Shown: in pieces, positions 26,531-34,748 of the stretch
How the letters are laid out: each line of letters starts with the position of its first letter
How positions within the stretch are numbered: the first letter of the stretch is position 1
Source: Labilithrix sp.
Lineage (GTDB): Bacteria > Myxococcota_A > Polyangia > Polyangiales > Polyangiaceae
NCBI GenBank assembly: GCA_019637155.1
Contig: JAHBWE010000008.1
Coordinates: forward strand, 1 to 64,000
Length of the DNA stretch: 64,000 nt
Reading direction: 5' to 3'
The notes under the pieces: model-generated
What the model saw: only the letters and a program-made list of their open reading frames with translations
What the model was told of the DNA's origin: nothing
Database searches by the model: none
Made by a program: the position numbers and the translations under genes

Positions 26531-27442
26531 TCAGTCTCGGAACGGATCGTCCTTGTAAGGGTCGACCTGCGGCTTCGACGGCTCCGGGTTCGGGACCGCC
26601 GAGGCGGAGCTGAGCGGCGGCACCGTCACGCGCGAGCGCGTCGCGAGCTCGACCTCGGCGCCGGGCAGCGCGGCGATGGCGCAGGTGACGGCGGGCTCGA
26701 ACGTCATCGGCTCGGTCGGGCCGCCGACGCGATCGTAGAAGCGCGCGGTGACGAGGCCCATCCGCTCGTCTCCGAGCTCCTGCCAGACGCGCCGCCACGT
26801 GCGGCCCTCGCGGATCGCGGCGATGAACGCCTCCGCGCTCGGGAACGTCAGCGTGTGGCGGAGCACGGTGTGGCGCACGAGGGAGAGGCCGCCGTCCTCG
26901 AACATCCGCGCCATCGACTCGCGATCGGAGTCGATGCGCGCCGGGGTCGCGACGGCGTCGGGCTCGAGCTCCCGCAGCGACTGCGCGAGCAGCTCGAACG
27001 GGTCCTCCTGATCGGGCGGCCCGAAGATGAGGACGCCCACCTTGCCGGTCGGGACCAGCGCCGAGGCCCACGCCTTCATGAGCGAGACGCGGTCCTTGAC
27101 GCTCCAGAGGCCGAACGCGCAGACGATCGCGTGCCAGCCGCCGGCGCCGACGTCGTCCGGCTCGGCGCGCTCGCAGGTGACGCCCGCGAAGCCGGCCTTC
27201 GACACCTGCTCCTGGCACATGCCGACGAGATCCTCGCTCGGATCGGTCGCGCGGACGACGCCCTTGTCACCGACCGCGCGCGCGAGGGCGAGCACCTCCG
27301 CGCCGAGGCCCGCGCTGACGACGAGGACGCGCTGCCCCTGCATGAGCGTGAGCTCCTGCACGAGATCGAGGTGGTAAGGCACGAAGCGCGGGACCCACTC
27401 GTCGAGGTACTTCGTCGCCGCGCGATCCCAGGGCGTGCCCAT
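26531..27442 (-). CDS. SAM-dependent methyltransferase (class I)
   Basis: Rossmann-fold methyltransferase, 303 residues. Motif I VLVVSAGLGAEVLALA is near 40-55, an acidic residue follows in RATDPSEDLV near 65, and an AIVCAFGLWS strand lies near 104. It resembles UbiE/COQ5-like methyltransferases, but the acceptor is unknown. The C-terminal 30 residues are a disordered Pro/Ser stretch. The ATG at 27442 was chosen because a TATCCT box sits 8 nt upstream and an in-frame extension to 27547 overlaps the divergent gcvT promoter. It lies upstream of metK on the same strand with a 120-bp gap, so it is probably a separate transcript. Confidence 0.8.
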   Translation of the reverse strand: MGTPWDRAATKYLDEWVPRFVPYHLDLVQELTLMQGQRVLVVSAGLGAEVLALARAVGDKGVVRATDPSEDLVGMCQEQVSKAGFAGVTCERAEPDDVGAGGWHAIVCAFGLWSVKDRVSLMKAWASALVPTGKVGVLIFGPPDQEDPFELLAQSLRELEPDAVATPARIDSDRESMARMFEDGGLSLVRHTVLRHTLTFPSAEAFIAAIREGRTWRRVWQELGDERMGLVTARFYDRVGGPTEPMTFEPAVTCAIAALPGAEVELATRSRVTVPPLSSASAVPNPEPSKPQVDPYKDDPFRD

Positions 27443-27450
27443 CGACGCGG

Positions 27451-27456
27451 AGGATA
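27451..27456 (-). promoter_or_regulatory. -10-like box (TATCCT) for methyltransferase
   Basis: Located 8 nt before the ATG at 27442. It is back-to-back with the gcvT box 76 bp away. Confidence 0.45.
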
Positions 27457-27531
27457 AGCGATCGGCTCCCTCTGTCGAGAGCGGCAAGAAGCGCCGCTTG
27501 GCGCGCTCTTCCGATGTCGGCGCATCCCGAG

Positions 27532-27537
27532 TACCTT
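27532..27537 (+). promoter_or_regulatory. -10-like box (TACCTT) for gcvT
   Basis: TACCTT ends 8 nt before the ATG at 27546. With transcription starting at or beside the ATG there is no room for a glycine riboswitch. Confidence 0.5.
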
Positions 27538-27545
27538 GGCTCCGC

Positions 27546-28640
27546 ATGACGGAAGCTACACGCCGGACCTCGCTCTACGATCGCCACGTCGCGGCCAAGG
27601 CCCGGATGGTGCCGTTCGCCGGCTTCGAGATGCCGATCCAGTACACCGGCATCGTCGACGAGCATCAGGCGGTGCGCACCGGCGCCGGCATCTTCGACGT
27701 GTCGCACATGGGCGAGCTCTCGATGTCGGGCGAGCACGCCGCCGCGGTCGTCGACTACCTCGTCACGAACGACGCGTCGAAGCTCGTCGACGGGCAGGCG
27801 ATGTACACCTGCGCCTGCAACGAGAAGGGCACGATCCTCGACGACCTCATCGTCTACCGCGCGGCGAAGGACCAGTGGCTCATCGTCTGCAACGCGTCGA
27901 ACCACGAGAAGATGGCGGCGCACTTCGCGAAGGCGGCCGTGGACCACTGCGAGTTCAAGGACCAGACCGACGCGACCGCGCTCCTCGCGCTGCAGGGACC
28001 GAAGGCCTTCGATCTGCTCGACGCGCTCGGCGGAGACGCGGCGAAGCTTCGCGAGCTCAAGAGCTTCCACTTCCGCGACGCCGAGATCGCGGGCGTCCAC
28101 TGCACCGCCGCGCGCACGGGCTACACCGGCGAGGACGGCGTCGAGATCTTCTGCCCGTGGGACGACGCGCCGAAGGTCTGGGACGCGCTCGTCGGCAAGG
28201 GCGCGAAGCCGATCGGGCTCGGCGCGCGCGACACGCTGCGGCTCGAGGCGCGCCTCTCGCTCTACGGCAACGACATCGACGAGACGACGAACCCGATCGA
28301 GGCCGGCCTCGGCTGGGTGACGAAGCTCGACAAGGCGATGTTCGTCGGCAAGGAGGCGCTCGCCGCGATCAAGGCCGCGCCGCTCCCGCGGAAGCTCGTC
28401 GGCTTCGAGGTCACCGGCCGCGGCATCGCACGCGGCGGCTACCCGCTGAAGGACACGAGCGGCAAGGTCGTCGGCGCGTGCACGAGCGGGAGCCCCGCCC
28501 CCACCGTCGGCAAGAACATCGGGCTCGGGTACCTGCCGGCCGAGCTCACCGCGATCGGCACCAAGCTCCTCGTCGACTGCCGCGGCAAGGACGTCGAGGC
28601 CGTCGTCGTGAAGACTCCGTTCTACAAGCGCGCCCAATAA
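27546..28640 (+). CDS. gcvT: Aminomethyltransferase (glycine cleavage T protein)
   Basis: T protein of the glycine cleavage system, 364 residues. It transfers the methylene unit from the aminomethyl-lipoyl H protein to tetrahydrofolate and releases ammonia. Family landmarks are RTSLYDRHV near 6-14, MVPFAGFEMPIQY near 21, GIFDVSHMGE near 51 (folate-site Asp), NASNHEKMAAHF near 118, TGYTGEDGVEIF near 192 and LRLEARLSLYGNDI near 232. Length is normal. gcvH follows 16 bp downstream; gcvP is not in the window after gcvH, so the P protein is encoded elsewhere. Confidence 0.95.
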   Translation: MTEATRRTSLYDRHVAAKARMVPFAGFEMPIQYTGIVDEHQAVRTGAGIFDVSHMGELSMSGEHAAAVVDYLVTNDASKLVDGQAMYTCACNEKGTILDDLIVYRAAKDQWLIVCNASNHEKMAAHFAKAAVDHCEFKDQTDATALLALQGPKAFDLLDALGGDAAKLRELKSFHFRDAEIAGVHCTAARTGYTGEDGVEIFCPWDDAPKVWDALVGKGAKPIGLGARDTLRLEARLSLYGNDIDETTNPIEAGLGWVTKLDKAMFVGKEALAAIKAAPLPRKLVGFEVTGRGIARGGYPLKDTSGKVVGACTSGSPAPTVGKNIGLGYLPAELTAIGTKLLVDCRGKDVEAVVVKTPFYKRAQ

Positions 28641-28656: not shown

Positions 28657-29040
28657 ATGGATTTCCCCGCAGATCTCAAATACACCAAAGATCACGAGTG
28701 GGCGAAGGTCGACGGAAAACGCGTCAAGGTGGGGATCACCGCCTTCGCGGTCGAGCAGCTCGGTGACATCACCCTCGTGACGATCGACGCGAAGGTCGGC
28801 GACCAGCTCGTCGCGGGGAAGACCTTCGGCACGATCGAGAGCGTGAAGACCCTCTCCGATCTCTACGCGCCGATCAGCGGCAAGGTCGTCGAGGTCAACG
28901 GCGCCCTCGACGCGTCCCCGGAGTCGGTGAACGCCGACCCCTACGCCGCGTGGATGATCGTGATCGAGACCGACACCCCCATCGACGGCCTGATGGACCA
29001 GTCCGCCTACCAAACCCACGTAAAAGACTCCGCCCATTGA
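28657..29040 (+). CDS. gcvH: Glycine cleavage system H protein
   Basis: Lipoyl carrier protein, 127 residues, shuttling the aminomethyl group between the P, T and L proteins. The lipoylated Lys is Lys64 in ESVKTLSDLY, with the usual hammerhead fold around KYTKDHEW (8-15) and GDITLVTI. The ATG is preceded by AAGGAGAAG, a clear ribosome binding site typical of a second operon gene here. Immediately after the stop comes the inverted hairpin repeat at 29060-29226. Confidence 0.96.
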   Translation: MDFPADLKYTKDHEWAKVDGKRVKVGITAFAVEQLGDITLVTIDAKVGDQLVAGKTFGTIESVKTLSDLYAPISGKVVEVNGALDASPESVNADPYAAWMIVIETDTPIDGLMDQSAYQTHVKDSAH

Positions 29041-29059
29041 CCCGACAGAACCGCAAAGC

Positions 29060-29226
29060 CCCTCCCGGGGGCGGCGGGGGCGGCGGGGGCGGCGGAGCGC
29101 GCCCCGCACGCGGCTCGAGAGGACAGCGCGGGCAGCGCCCTCTCGCGGGGGTCCGGGGGCGGCGGAGCGCGCCCCGCGCGCGCAGCGACCCCCGGCGGGA
29201 GAGCTCGAGAGGGCAGAGCCCTCTCG
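29060..29226 (-). repeat. Inverted copy of the nested-hairpin intergenic repeat
   Basis: Reads on the minus strand as CGAGAGGGCTCTGCCCTCTCG, then GAGCTCTCCCGCCGGGGG, ending in a CCCCCGGACCCCC and CGAGAGGG block. It matches the units at 17092-17256 in order and in arm sequences. The GCGGAGCGCGCCCCGC loop part occurs twice (about 29091 and 29161). It fills the gap between gcvH and the kinase-macro gene. Confidence 0.75.
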
Positions 29227-29233
29227 AACCTGC

Positions 29234-30715
29234 ATGAAGAACCTCGTCGTTCCCGGGTACGAGGTCTGGGGGCACCTCGGCGAAGGGGGGATGAGCGAGG
29301 TGTGGCTCGCGAAGCACGTCGCGCTCGCGGCGCCGGTCGTCGTGAAGACGCTCCGCCGCGAGCTGCGCGCGACGACGCCCGACGCGGCGGACCGCATCCT
29401 CTCCGAGGCGCGGCTGATGGCGCGCGTCTCGAGCCCCCGCATCGTGCGCGCGCTCGACGCCGGGCACGTCATCGACGAAGGGCAGCCCACGCCGTACCTC
29501 GTCCAGGAGTACGTCGACGGCCTCGACTTCGCCGAGCTCGACCGCCGCCGCCGCGTCGCGCTCGGCGTCGGCCTGCCGCTCTGGACGGTCTGCCGCGTGA
29601 TGTGTGAAGTATGCATGGGTCTTCGCGCCGCGCACCAGGCGGGCGTCATCCATCGCGATCTCAAGCCGTCGAACGTGTTCGGCGATCCCGAGATCGGCAT
29701 CCGCCTCGGCGACTTCGGCATCGCCGTCGCGCGGAGCGACACGAGCGTCCCCGAGGGCGCGGTCGGCGCGGGCACGCCCGCCTTCATGGCGCCGGAGCAG
29801 CTGCGGCGCGGCGAGATCGGCCGCTTCACCGACGTGTGGGGCGCGGGCGCGACGGCGTGCGATCTCCGCTACGGCCGCGGGCCGTTCGCGAACGTCGAGG
29901 AGCTCCTCGATCCCGACACGCCGCCGCGGCTCCCGCAGCCGGCGTCGCCCGCGGAGGCGTACTTCCAGGACGTGATCCGGCGTATGGTCGCGAAGGACCT
30001 CGCCGTGCGCCCGCGGGACATCCTCGCGCCGCTCGCGCACTTCACGATGCTCTCGAACGCGATCGAGCCGCCGCCCCCCGTCGCGACGCGCACGCTCGCG
30101 CACGAGCTCGGCGTCGGCCGCGTGCAGCTCCGCTTCGTCGTCGGCGACATCGCCGACGCGTCGGTGGCCGCGATCGTGTCGAGCGCGAACTTCAAGATGC
30201 GGATGGAGCTCGGCGTCGCGGGCGCGCTCAAGGCGCGGGGCGGCGCCGAGATCGAAGAGGAGGCGATGCGGAACGGCGAGCAGGCGCTCGGCTCCTGCGT
30301 GCGCACCGGCGCGGGCGCGCTCGAGGCGCGTCACGTGTTCCACGCCGTGAGCGCGTGGAGCGAGGTCTCTTGCGTCGGCCGCGCGTTCGCGCGCGCGCTC
30401 CTGCTCGCGGACGAGCAGGGCTGCGCCACGCTCGCGGCGCCGGCGCTCGGGACCGGCGTCGGCCGCGTGAGCATCGAGATGTGCGCGAGCGCGATGATGA
30501 ACACGCTCCGCCGCCACGTGATGCTCGGCGGCACGCGGCTCCGCGAGCTCACGATCTGGCTCGACTCGGAGGCGAAGCGCGCCGTCTATCAGGACGTCGC
30601 GGAGGAGGTGCTCGGCATCTACCACCGCCACACCGGCCCGGCCGACATCGGCCTCACCGACGACAGCGCCGCCCGCGGCGACGCCGCGACGTGCGTCGAC
30701 CCGGACAGCCACTGA
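29234..30715 (+). CDS. Ser/Thr protein kinase fused to a macro (ADP-ribose-binding) domain
   Basis: Two-domain cytosolic protein of 493 residues. The kinase occupies 8-280: Gly loop GEGGMS, Lys38, HRDLKPSN (Asp142), DFG 160-162, TPAFMAPEQ near 181. The C-terminal 297-450 is a macro domain: strand LRFVVGDIAD, the SSAN motif (316-319) for the adenine/ribose side, the GVAGALKARGG phosphate loop (327-337) and the ALGTGVGR loop (404-411). Macro domains bind or hydrolyse ADP-ribose, its derivatives or related nucleotides, so kinase output may respond to NAD-derived ligands or ADP-ribosylated targets (inference). No membrane helix is present. It follows the hairpin repeat after gcvH, with no close partner gene. 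Confidence 0.88.
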   Translation: MKNLVVPGYEVWGHLGEGGMSEVWLAKHVALAAPVVVKTLRRELRATTPDAADRILSEARLMARVSSPRIVRALDAGHVIDEGQPTPYLVQEYVDGLDFAELDRRRRVALGVGLPLWTVCRVMCEVCMGLRAAHQAGVIHRDLKPSNVFGDPEIGIRLGDFGIAVARSDTSVPEGAVGAGTPAFMAPEQLRRGEIGRFTDVWGAGATACDLRYGRGPFANVEELLDPDTPPRLPQPASPAEAYFQDVIRRMVAKDLAVRPRDILAPLAHFTMLSNAIEPPPPVATRTLAHELGVGRVQLRFVVGDIADASVAAIVSSANFKMRMELGVAGALKARGGAEIEEEAMRNGEQALGSCVRTGAGALEARHVFHAVSAWSEVSCVGRAFARALLLADEQGCATLAAPALGTGVGRVSIEMCASAMMNTLRRHVMLGGTRLRELTIWLDSEAKRAVYQDVAEEVLGIYHRHTGPADIGLTDDSAARGDAATCVDPDSH

Positions 30716-30726
30716 CGCCGCCGCGG

Positions 30727-33129
30727 CTACGCGACGATCGCGACCCACTCCCCGTTTCGGCGCGCGTGGACGCCGCGCTCGGTCGTGTCGATCTGGAACA
30801 GGTGGACCCACTCGTTGTCGACGAGGTTCCGGACCGTGGCGTGCTTCTCCAGCACCCGGTCGATCGCGGGGCGCGGGGCCTCGATGAAGACGCTGAGCCG
30901 CAGCGGCGCGTGCATCCAGCGCTCCCCGTCGTGGAGCGACTGGATCGAGAGGCCGATGCGGAGGTCGCCGCCGTTCCCCTCGTACACCCCGAGGTGCCCG
31001 CCCACGACGTTGTGGAGGACCTTGTTCCCGCTGCCGTAGCGGCGGTTGTCCACCATCGACGCGTAGTACTGGAAGTTGATCCAGTGCGAGACGACCAGCG
31101 GCGCCGTCATGATCAGCTCGAGGATCGCGCCGTCCTGGTCCTCGTCGAAGCGGTAGTCGTGCAAGAACGCGCGCCCGCTCAGGTCGAGGTGCCGCGTCCG
31201 CTCGCGCGGCGCCACGATCAGCGTCGCGTTCCCGGCGAGGCCCCACTCCGGCCGCACCTCCGCCCAGTTCTTCGCGCGCTCCAGCACCGCCGCGTGCACC
31301 TCGGCGTCCGAGCGCCCCCCGAGCCCCAGCTTCGGCGCGCGCTCCCGCCGCGCCGCGACGCTCGCCCGCTCGAGCACGCCGCGCAGCTCCCCCATCGAGG
31401 CCGCCTCCTCGAACAACACCACGTCGTCCGTCGTCGTGTTGTGGAGGCCCGCCACGAACCGCGTCGTCGCCGGGATCTCGATCCCCCGCCCTGCCAGCCC
31501 CGCCCGGACCTCCGCGTCGTTCAGCAGCGCCGCCGCCGCGCGCGCGTTCACCTCGCCTGTCTGCCCGCAGCACGCGCCGCAGTCGAGCCCCGCGGCGTGC
31601 GGGTTGTTCCGCGTCCCCGCCCCGTGCCCCACGAGGAGCACCGTCCGCGCGAACCCGCGCGTCAGGCTCATCGCGCGCAGCATCCCCTCCGCGAGCTCGC
31701 ACCGCTCCGGGAGCGAGATCGGCGCGCCGTCCACCCGGCTCGTGATCCGCGGCGCGCGCGCGACGTGCTCCTTCGGGTCGAGGCCCACGCTCTCATGATA
31801 AGCCGACGGCCGCGCGCCTCTTCCGAACGACTCACGGAGGATGTCGGCGCCGAACAAGAGGCCAATCGCGTCCACGAACGCAAAGCTCGACAGCGAATTG
31901 GAGCGGAATGCCTTCCACGCCTGCGCCGCGTAGAGGCGCGATTTCCGCTTTTCTTCGAGCCCCGCCGGCGCGCCGACGTCCGTAACACGGTATTTCGGCG
32001 CGAGGAGACCCGGCAATTGCGGCCGCGCGCCGTCGGCCGCGAGCGGCGAATACTCCACCGGCAATCCGAAGAAGCCGGCACACGCGAGCGTCTCGATGTC
32101 CTTGCTCTCTGCCTCGAGCGCGCGACGGTAAGGCTCCGACCGCACGTCGAGGCAGAAGACCGCCTGCAAATCGGGATTCGCGGACCGCGCCGCGGCGAAC
32201 CCCCGCGGCAGGTTCTCCGTTATCCGCGACGTCCACGCGATCTCCGCCGCGCGCTGGAGGAGCCAGTCTTCGGTGCGCGACATCTGCGCCGCGTTGTCGA
32301 TGACCGGCCAGCTCGCGAGGGCGTGACGCCAGTCGGCCCGGAGCTCCTGCCCGCCGGCGCGGAGGAGGATCCACTCCCAGGCGACGCGGATCGCGAGCAG
32401 CTCGACGATGTGATGATCGTCTCGATCGGCGAGGCGCGCGGTCCAGCGGAGATAGGCGCACCACGACGACCAGCCGTTGATGTCGAGGAGGAGGGCGGTG
32501 AGGTAAGCCTCGCGCTGCTCGGCGGGGACCTCGAGCTCCGCCCACGCCGTAGCGAGCATCTCGTCCGCCGTCTTCGGGAGCGCCGCGACCGCGGTGCGGT
32601 ATTCGTCGAGCCCCATGAAGAGGGAAATGCCCCGATCGCGCCGGGCCTGCGCGCGCCACGTCTTGTAGAGGCCGCCCTTGCGATCGGGGTGAATCTGGGC
32701 CTGGCCGTCATCGAAGTAGGAAGCGCAGAAGAGGCCAAGACGCGCGACGATGAAGTCCCGCCACGAGAGCTCGAGCGCGCGGTGGCAGCGCGTGTCCATG
32801 ACGTCGACGACGAGCGGGCGCCGCGGCGGCGGCTTGTCCTCGATCCAGAAGAGCGCCGTCAGCTGCTCCTCGGTGAGGTGGGAGCCGAGCTCGCCGATCG
32901 CGGCGCTGAGGTGCTGCTGGCGGAGGCGGCCTTCGCGCCACTCCTCCGCGAACCACGCCCGCGGCATGATGAGGCGCGCGCCCGAGAGCGCGGCGAGCTC
33001 GCCGGCGACGCGGGGGAACGGCTTGTCGATGTGGCCCCAGAACGGGTTTACCGCGATGAAGCGATCGAGCGGCCACACCGGCGCGATGCGGGCGCACGCG
33101 CGCTCCGCGATCTCCTTCGGCTCCGTCAC
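30727..33129 (-). CDS. dabA: Inorganic carbon transporter subunit DabA (UPF0753/DUF2309)
   Basis: Cytoplasmic carbonic-anhydrase-like subunit of the DAB dissolved-inorganic-carbon accumulation complex, 800 residues, within the family range. Zinc-site residues map to Cys326 and Asp328 (FCLDVRSE), His502 (GHGAGT) and Cys517. The Cys-x-Asp spacing and the 15-residue His-Cys spacing equal those of characterised DabA. Other family segments are FIAVNPFWG (24-32) and the AYYH-type loop GARPSAYHES (438-447). The GTG overlaps the stop of dabB by 4 bp (GTGA), so the two are translationally coupled. It is expected to hydrate CO2 to bicarbonate, driven by cation flow through DabB. Confidence 0.93.
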   Translation of the reverse strand: MTEPKEIAERACARIAPVWPLDRFIAVNPFWGHIDKPFPRVAGELAALSGARLIMPRAWFAEEWREGRLRQQHLSAAIGELGSHLTEEQLTALFWIEDKPPPRRPLVVDVMDTRCHRALELSWRDFIVARLGLFCASYFDDGQAQIHPDRKGGLYKTWRAQARRDRGISLFMGLDEYRTAVAALPKTADEMLATAWAELEVPAEQREAYLTALLLDINGWSSWCAYLRWTARLADRDDHHIVELLAIRVAWEWILLRAGGQELRADWRHALASWPVIDNAAQMSRTEDWLLQRAAEIAWTSRITENLPRGFAAARSANPDLQAVFCLDVRSEPYRRALEAESKDIETLACAGFFGLPVEYSPLAADGARPQLPGLLAPKYRVTDVGAPAGLEEKRKSRLYAAQAWKAFRSNSLSSFAFVDAIGLLFGADILRESFGRGARPSAYHESVGLDPKEHVARAPRITSRVDGAPISLPERCELAEGMLRAMSLTRGFARTVLLVGHGAGTRNNPHAAGLDCGACCGQTGEVNARAAAALLNDAEVRAGLAGRGIEIPATTRFVAGLHNTTTDDVVLFEEAASMGELRGVLERASVAARRERAPKLGLGGRSDAEVHAAVLERAKNWAEVRPEWGLAGNATLIVAPRERTRHLDLSGRAFLHDYRFDEDQDGAILELIMTAPLVVSHWINFQYYASMVDNRRYGSGNKVLHNVVGGHLGVYEGNGGDLRIGLSIQSLHDGERWMHAPLRLSVFIEAPRPAIDRVLEKHATVRNLVDNEWVHLFQIDTTERGVHARRNGEWVAIVA

Positions 33130-34748
33130 CACTGCCGCGACTCCAGCGGCGCGCGCGGGCGGATCGAGGAGGGGCTCGGGGCGGTGGTGCGCTCGACGCG
33201 CGGCGGCCAGAGGCGGAACGTCACGCGCGTGAACCAATCGTCGATGTAGAGGCCGCTGAGGAGGTGGGGATGGAGGAAGCGCGCGAGCCCGCCGCTCGGG
33301 CTCGTTTGAACGACGACCTGCACGACGAAGAGGACCCCGAGGCCGGCGACGACGACGGTCCACTGGAACGGCGAGGCCGCCCCCGCCTCGAGGGGAGGCA
33401 CGATCTCCTCGAAGAGCACGTGACCCGCGAAATACGCGGCCGCCGCGCCGGCGGTGAAGAGCGCGGTGAGACCGAAGGCGCGCCACCCCGCCGCGAGGGC
33501 GCGGCCGACCATCGGGACGAAGCTCAGCCCGAGCACCAGCGCGAGCGAGGTGAGCGACGGCGACGCGTGCCCGCCGGCCAGCTTGAAGAGGGCATAGAAC
33601 GGAGCGGCGGCGACGGAGAGGACGAGGACGGCCGCGGCGACGACGCCGAGCGACGGCTTCTTCGGCTGCACGAGCGACGCGCCGCGCCAGGTCGACACGA
33701 CCGACCCGGCGGTGAGGAAGGCGTGCGCCTTGTAGAAGGAGTGCGCGAGGAGGTGGAGGAGCGCGAGGTGCCACACGCCGAGGCCGCACTGCATCAGCAT
33801 GAAGCCCATCTGCGCGATCGTGGACCAGGCGAGCACGACCTTGATGCTCAGGCGCGTCGTCATCACGAGCGAGCCGATGATCGCGGTGGCGAGGCCGAAG
33901 CCGACGAGCATGCCCTGCGCGATGGAGGCGTGGGCCATGAGCGGGCTCAGGCGGATCATCACGAAGCCGCCGATGTTCACGACGCCGGCGTGGAGGAGCG
34001 CGGAGACGGGCGTGGGGGCCTCCATCACGGTCGTGACCCAGCCGTGGAACGGGACCTGCGCCGTCTTGAGGAGGACGCCGACGACGAGGAGGACGGTCGC
34101 GACGTGGAGCGGCGAGGTGAACGCGGACGCCTCCGCCGCGTACGCGTTGACGACGTCGATGCGGAGCGAGCCGACCTCGGCGGAGAGGAACGCGAGCGAG
34201 CCGACGAAGAAGAGGTCCGCGAGCCGGCTGAGGAGGAACGTCTTGTGCGCGACGATGACCGCCTGGCGCCGCGTCCGATAGAACATCAGGAGCTGGTGCA
34301 AGAAGACGCCGGCCGCGAACCAGCCGCCGATGAGGAACACGAGGTGGTTCGAGACGACGAGCATCGTGACCGACGCGAGCGTCATCAGCAGCGAGCGCAC
34401 GTAGCGGTCGAGGCCGCGCTCGCCGGCGAGGTAGGTCCGCGAGTAGCGCACGACGACGATCGCGAGCGTGCTCACGAGGAGGAGCATCGCGCTCGAGACG
34501 AGGTCGAGCTGCACGAGCGCGTGGAGCGCGGCGCCGAGCTTCGAGGTGGACGGCGCGACGCCGAGCAGCGCGATCGTCGCGCGGAGGAGGACCGCGACGG
34601 CGGAGAGGCCCGCCGTCAACGCGGTGGCGAACGTGGCGGCGCGGAAGGGCGCGCGCTTCGCGGCGAAGGGCGCAGCCAGGACGAGGAGCGTGGGGACGAG
34701 CGTGGCCACGATGAGCGGCGACAGCTCGAGCAGGTCATGGGCGAACAA
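33126..34748 (-). CDS. dabB: DabB: NuoL/MrpA-like proton-transducing membrane subunit
   Basis: Polytopic membrane protein of about 14 helices and 540 residues, in the proton-conducting membrane transporter family (NADH-quinone oxidoreductase subunit 5/MrpA-like). The core contains conserved features of that family: Lys in FLLSRLADLFF, Lys/His-rich LLKTAQVPFHGWV near 226 and the LAHSFYKAHAFLTAGS segment near 341. It is located directly upstream of dabA with a 4-bp overlap, which marks it as the DabB partner rather than a respiratory subunit; no other nuo or mrp genes are near. The frame starts at TTG 34748, since no ATG or GTG fits the conserved N-terminus. Confidence 0.9.
   Translation of the reverse strand: MFAHDLLELSPLIVATLVPTLLVLAAPFAAKRAPFRAATFATALTAGLSAVAVLLRATIALLGVAPSTSKLGAALHALVQLDLVSSAMLLLVSTLAIVVVRYSRTYLAGERGLDRYVRSLLMTLASVTMLVVSNHLVFLIGGWFAAGVFLHQLLMFYRTRRQAVIVAHKTFLLSRLADLFFVGSLAFLSAEVGSLRIDVVNAYAAEASAFTSPLHVATVLLVVGVLLKTAQVPFHGWVTTVMEAPTPVSALLHAGVVNIGGFVMIRLSPLMAHASIAQGMLVGFGLATAIIGSLVMTTRLSIKVVLAWSTIAQMGFMLMQCGLGVWHLALLHLLAHSFYKAHAFLTAGSVVSTWRGASLVQPKKPSLGVVAAAVLVLSVAAAPFYALFKLAGGHASPSLTSLALVLGLSFVPMVGRALAAGWRAFGLTALFTAGAAAAYFAGHVLFEEIVPPLEAGAASPFQWTVVVAGLGVLFVVQVVVQTSPSGGLARFLHPHLLSGLYIDDWFTRVTFRLWPPRVERTTAPSPSSIRPRAPLESRQW

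Follow-up and report, generated by a model that had tools for sequence, protein, structure and literature searches.

Which signal governs a bacterial Ser/Thr kinase that carries a macro domain in the same polypeptide? Myxobacteria possess very many Ser/Thr kinases, and the signal is known for only few of them. The question is raised by a 64,000-nucleotide stretch of DNA from Labilithrix sp. (positions 1 to 64,000 of contig JAHBWE010000008.1, hereafter the window), in which an open frame of 493 codons (29234..30715, + strand) encodes a kinase-macro fusion protein recognised from Pfam matches, codon composition and 50 aligned full-length homologues. The GC fractions at the three codon positions of this frame (0.74/0.50/0.96) match those of the coding DNA of this genome, and both domains lie in one uninterrupted frame, as the initial annotation had stated. 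The fusion is neither a chance product nor a frame accident, since the full-length orthologues found in a first scan are 48-63% identical and 50 aligned copies contain both domains joined by a linker of the same length.

The first part of the protein is a PknB-type Ser/Thr kinase domain (residues 9-275; 29258..30058, + strand), assigned using Pfam PF00069, structural alignment with VIA-align and residue counts. The Pfam Pkinase model matches residues 9-223 (E 1.5e-34), and the Lys, alpha-C Glu, HRD and DFG of a kinase fold are all found in the protein (K38, E58, H140-R141-D142, K144, N147 and D160-F161-G162), with Lys38, Asp142 and DFG 160-162 exactly where they had been described at the outset. 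Among the 50 aligned full-length copies K38 is kept in 49 and E58 in 47, and H140, D142, K144, N147 and DFG are each present in 50/50. A hydrophobic stretch of membrane-helix grade is absent from the fusion protein, the highest hydropathy over 19 residues being 1.53. The best explanation of these residues and of the predicted structure is that the kinase half is a soluble PknB-type Ser/Thr kinase, probably catalytically competent. At least about 150 kinase matches to the fusion protein are present in this 10.1 Mb genome, indicating a kinome at least about that large.

The kinase fold and the catalytic set are common to this protein and to PknB of Mycobacterium tuberculosis and other PknB-type kinases. 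PASTA kinases (PknB/Stk1), however, have a membrane segment and PASTA repeats, whereas the fusion protein lacks both and carries a macro domain instead; the NCBIfam model PknB_PASTA_kin scores 152 bits against a cut-off of 450, with the kinase part alone matched. The likeness to the anti-phage kinases MAD6 and PD-T4-6 is confined to the kinase domain, and the full-length MAD6 model of NCBIfam reaches 112 bits against a cut-off of 460. A role in anti-phage defence was rejected, because the PADLOC and NCBIfam hits (MAD6, PD-T4-6) fall only on the kinase part and the neighbouring genes are of housekeeping type.

The second part of the protein is a macro domain (residues 297-460; 30122..30613, + strand), assigned from Pfam PF01661, Foldseek and residue counts. 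Similarity to macro domains begins at approximately residue 297, and the Pfam Macro model (PF01661) matches residues 315-421 (E 5.9e-17; 62.1 bits vs. a cut-off of 22). The motifs listed in the initial annotation, GDI (304-306), SSAN (316-319), GVAGALKARGG (327-337) and ALGTGVGR (404-411), were recovered as claimed, and the domain residues considered below are D305, N319, GVAG 327-330, GG 336-337, H370 and GTG 406-408. Profile searches with the macro part match PARP14, TTHA0132, PARP9 and macroH2A, and the solved macro domain closest by single sequence is TTHA0132 (E 9e-20). This TTHA0132 type of stand-alone macro domain (PDB 2dx6) has many stand-alone relatives in the phylum, but it carries NAAN where the fusions mostly have SSAN, and GAGVAGA where they mostly have R(S/T)GVG(E/D)A. 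The stand-alone rows lack the conserved W, C and Arg pair of the fusions, and only the fusions carry a kinase. The macro domains of PARP14, PARP9 and macroH2A1.1 have the fold in common with the fusions (TM 0.77-0.86) and are profile matches, yet they are eukaryotic, joined to PARP or histone domains, and without a kinase. Several PARP14 and macroH2A1.1 macro domains act as ADP-ribose readers. The genome encodes a single further macro domain, a stand-alone and divergent one (L199; G000:C12:125984-126388, - strand).

The structure was predicted by AlphaFold2 from a 50-row alignment, in which the window protein was combined with translated related loci. The resulting model (pLDDT 89.3, pTM 0.88) replaced an earlier six-row model, in which the macro half was good and the kinase half poor (pLDDT 65). 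A macro fold over residues 297-450 had been set beforehand as a test of the annotation, and the predicted structure gives this fold over residues 297-460; in the six-row model, Foldseek pairs the macro half with 2dx6 (TM 0.91, rmsd 1.7), PARP14 macro domain 3 (TM 0.86) and macroH2A1.1 (TM 0.80). The kinase half of the 50-row model aligns with M. tuberculosis PknB (5u94) over 254 residues (VIA-align Z 32.6, rmsd 1.8), and Foldseek on the same model likewise pairs it with PknB. The VIA-align matches for the full model are kinases and bear on the kinase half, not on the macro part. The high pTM suggests that the two domains are held in a fixed arrangement in the predicted structure, and the linker between them, of about 22 residues, is nearly constant in length (18-24 across copies). 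Mean pairwise identity is 51.4% for the kinase and 52.1% for the macro half, with a correlation of 0.89; this equal and correlated divergence indicates that similar constraint acts on both halves, the macro half being no decaying passenger.

The initial annotation had proposed looking for the same architecture in other Myxococcota, where it is indeed found. In a profile search with the macro part among 183 genomes of the window's order, 51 matches stood out as strong (E below 1e-38, with a gap before the weaker ones); all have long open frames, and they come from 49 genomes. The sample contains one genome per species, many of them draft bins. Fifty of these 51 copies were retrieved with their flanks and aligned over kinase plus macro, the 51st being L001, whose ORF start is overlong as mechanically called. 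Among 377 sampled genomes of the phylum, a further five fusions lie outside the order (L178-L182). One was found among 294 genomes of the phylum of a Planctomycetaceae bin (L213) and one among 297 genomes of that of an Acidobacteriota bin (L222), and these two could possibly reflect contig misplacement or transfer. No fusion-length frame was found among E 1e-30 matches in 346 genomes of the phylum of an Actinomadura. The kinase-macro fusion is a real conserved family and forms one unit. A tree of macro domains places the fused ones of the order and phylum together, away from the stand-alone TTHA0132-like and the MacroD-like ones; support for this is weak to moderate (94/54), and the topology is compatible with a single origin of the fusion.

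Two further groups deserve mention. Sorangium-type genomes encode a second kinase-macro design (L167 7570-9186, L168 7906-9417, L169 7477-8955, L170 7348-9000 and L171 7759-9261), whose linker is longer and which stands apart on a very long branch of the macro tree; in its macro part the adenine Asp is replaced by N and the pocket Asn by D, making it a candidate pseudo-macro kinase. In one clade of the main type (L137, L155, L157, also L069) the kinase-macro gene is followed after 42-144 bp by the gene of a conserved NRPS-like protein, about 1520 aa long, with parts that resemble formyltransferases and luciferase-like monooxygenases, and these fusions have Ser in place of the alpha-C Glu and Tyr in place of the macro Asn.

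What the macro domain might do can be judged from its pocket. D305, at the position of the Asp that contacts adenine, a role that we assume from established macro-domain structures, is found in 50/50 aligned copies, and so is each of G336, G337, G353, H370 and G408; G406-T407-G408 is kept in 49-50/50, and the phosphate-binding loops are present. The pocket residue Asn319 occurs in 41/50 copies and is substituted in the remaining 9/50. Position 329, where the GGGVD loop of MacroD has its catalytic Asp, is G in 36, A in 13 and S in one of the 50 copies, and none of the 55 main-type fused copies has anything but G, A or S there, whereas the MacroD-like rows of the same alignment have D (macro-domain classes used for comparison are from PMC7050489). 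Position 330 is acidic in 31/50 copies. The fusions also have a specific W-x4-C-x2-R-x3-R motif (W375 in 43/50, C380 in 45/50, R383 and R387 each in 50/50). The MacroD catalytic Asp being missing, the macro domain would be a reader rather than a remover of ADP-ribose, and its chemistry, judged from these residues, looks more like binding than MacroD-type hydrolysis. MacroH2A likewise has Gly at the MacroD Asp position, as the fusions mostly do.

The reading that we prefer, giving it an even chance, is that an ADP-ribose-type ligand controls or directs the kinase via a reader-type macro domain. The interpretation given in the initial annotation is supported in part, by the two folds, the catalytic residues of the kinase and the conserved fusion; gating by an NAD metabolite or recruitment to ADP-ribosylated targets, both suggested there, may apply, helped by the invariant Asp305, although the replacement of N319 in 9/50 copies means that the pocket is not uniformly conserved. 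The initial annotation had mentioned neither the glycine cleavage genes nearby nor the missing MacroD catalytic Asp. The macro domain could instead be a tether that brings the kinase to ADP-ribosylated proteins and leaves its activity unchanged. The profile matches to PARP14 macro domains and macroH2A1.1 and the almost constant linker length are in line with such a tether, but the genes around the fusion at the window locus include no ADP-ribosyltransferase, these bacteria have no known ADP-ribosylated target, and a fixed regulatory contact would account at least equally well for the confident model of the protein as a single body (pTM 0.88); we regard tethering as unlikely. It is distinctly unlikely that the domain no longer binds nucleotides and serves the kinase as a module for structure or for protein-protein contact. 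A dead pocket would not be expected to keep Asp305 in every one of the 50 copies from across the order, even if the nine copies without Asn319, the separate Sorangium-type design without both Asp and Asn, and the conserved fusion-specific motif with its two Arg residues in every copy would suit such a role. An active ADP-ribose hydrolase in the macro half, which would make the protein a two-enzyme fusion both phosphorylating and de-ADP-ribosylating, appears quite improbable: judged by the MacroD-type residues compared, the catalytic Asp is missing from every copy, and Asn319 is lost in nine, against which stand the retention of Asn319 in 41/50 copies and of the phosphate loops, the acidic residue at position 330 in 31/50, and the fact that no activity is reported for the nearest solved structure, TTHA0132, in the literature found.

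The gene neighbourhood may offer a hint as to the process under control. Upstream of the fusion gene and on the same strand lie gcvT, encoding the aminomethyltransferase of the glycine cleavage system (27435..28640, + strand; Pfam GCV_T E 9e-95, GCV_T_C), the start of which is overlong as mechanically called and probably lies some 35 codons downstream, and gcvH, encoding the lipoyl carrier protein (28657..29040, + strand; Pfam GCV_H E 6e-34, with the lipoylation-site motif ESVKTLSD). The gcvH end and the kinase-macro ORF are 194 bp apart. The spacer (29041-29233) is very rich in G+C and has within it a repeated unit (cggcggagcgcgccccgc...ctcgagagg...ccctctcg) resembling an intergenic repeat element; no promoter- or terminator-like site was found in it on the strand of the kinase gene with a tool that sees limited promoter types. 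The other window neighbours are metK and a methyltransferase gene on the opposite strand and, right after the kinase gene and also on the opposite strand, an inorganic-carbon uptake pair (30727-34748, - strand) composed of DabA (PF10070, 848 bits; ORF start overlong as mechanically called) and a DabB-like antiporter subunit.

In the window's clade a gcv gene adjoins or lies near the fusion in 18/26 members (16 labelled on the tree plus L127 and L128, with gcvP upstream), neighbour identities outside the window being drawn from ORF clustering with Pfam checks on ten proteins. The gcv genes take four arrangements: the kinase gene may come after gcvT-gcvH, after gcvT-gcvH with a gcvP subunit, or after full-length gcvP, or gcvP may be divergent from it; several clade members, including L124 and L135, have gcvH-to-kinase gaps of 5-43 bp. 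Outside this clade the neighbours vary (an NRPS, unrelated proteins) without a common theme, and an operon common to the whole family was consequently dropped. The gcv linkage may reflect regulation of glycine cleavage or merely inherited gene order. Because the gcv link sits inside a block with metK, the methyltransferase gene and mutS and shows few changes on the tree, shared gene-order ancestry is a full rival, under which the kinase would act elsewhere, whatever the reading of the macro domain. For inherited order speak the confinement of the link to one clade, the other conserved genes that flank the locus and the unrelated neighbours in other clades; against it, the four distinct gcv arrangements and the short gaps, which suggest operons. 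We find the two sides evenly balanced. Three points also weigh against the glycine-cleavage part of our preferred reading: the gcvH spacer in the window has room for a separate promoter, gcvP is on another contig in this genome, and no gcv gene neighbours the fusion in the deeper branches.

The SirTM/Zn-macro/GcvH-L/LplA2 operons (PMC4518038) likewise encode a macro domain close to a glycine-cleavage H protein. There, a non-canonical GcvH-L is encoded outside the glycine cleavage operon together with a sirtuin and a lipoate ligase, and the macro protein is a hydrolase (PMC4518038), whereas here gcvH accompanies gcvT and the macro domain forms one protein with a kinase. Neither a SirTM sirtuin nor a lipoate ligase is adjacent to the fusion gene at the window locus, and membership in the lipoate/SirTM system was rejected for that reason. 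Among precedents for a macro domain beside an H protein the SirTM system comes closest, by analogy and not by membership. Kinases with a sensor domain are already known; a macro domain in the place of the sensor is apparently undescribed as far as the open-access literature shows, and the statement that no characterised bacterial kinase has this design held for the literature searched.

According to the reading that we prefer, the macro reader would bind an ADP-ribose-containing ligand, either free ADP-ribose, O-acetyl-ADP-ribose or protein-attached ADP-ribose, and the ligand would control or direct the kinase in one sense or the other. Sirtuins produce O-acetyl-ADP-ribose, and the three sirtuins of this genome, all encoded on other contigs than the fusion gene, could be its source. 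In the window's clade the fusion gene is probably co-transcribed with gcvT-gcvH, and glycine/one-carbon metabolism, which consumes NAD+, would for this reason be the process most likely under kinase control.

We tentatively propose, as a possibility that we hold with some doubt, a kinase family in which a built-in macro domain lets an NAD-derived nucleotide, or protein ADP-ribosylation, act as the switch, and which in one clade sets glycine cleavage. If true, two post-translational signalling languages would be joined in one polypeptide, and NAD/ADP-ribose signalling would be connected directly with bacterial protein phosphorylation. Being soluble and made of one chain, the protein lends itself to structural and biochemical work, and an ADP-ribose-type pocket built into the kinase itself narrows the candidate ligands to a small set that can be tested.
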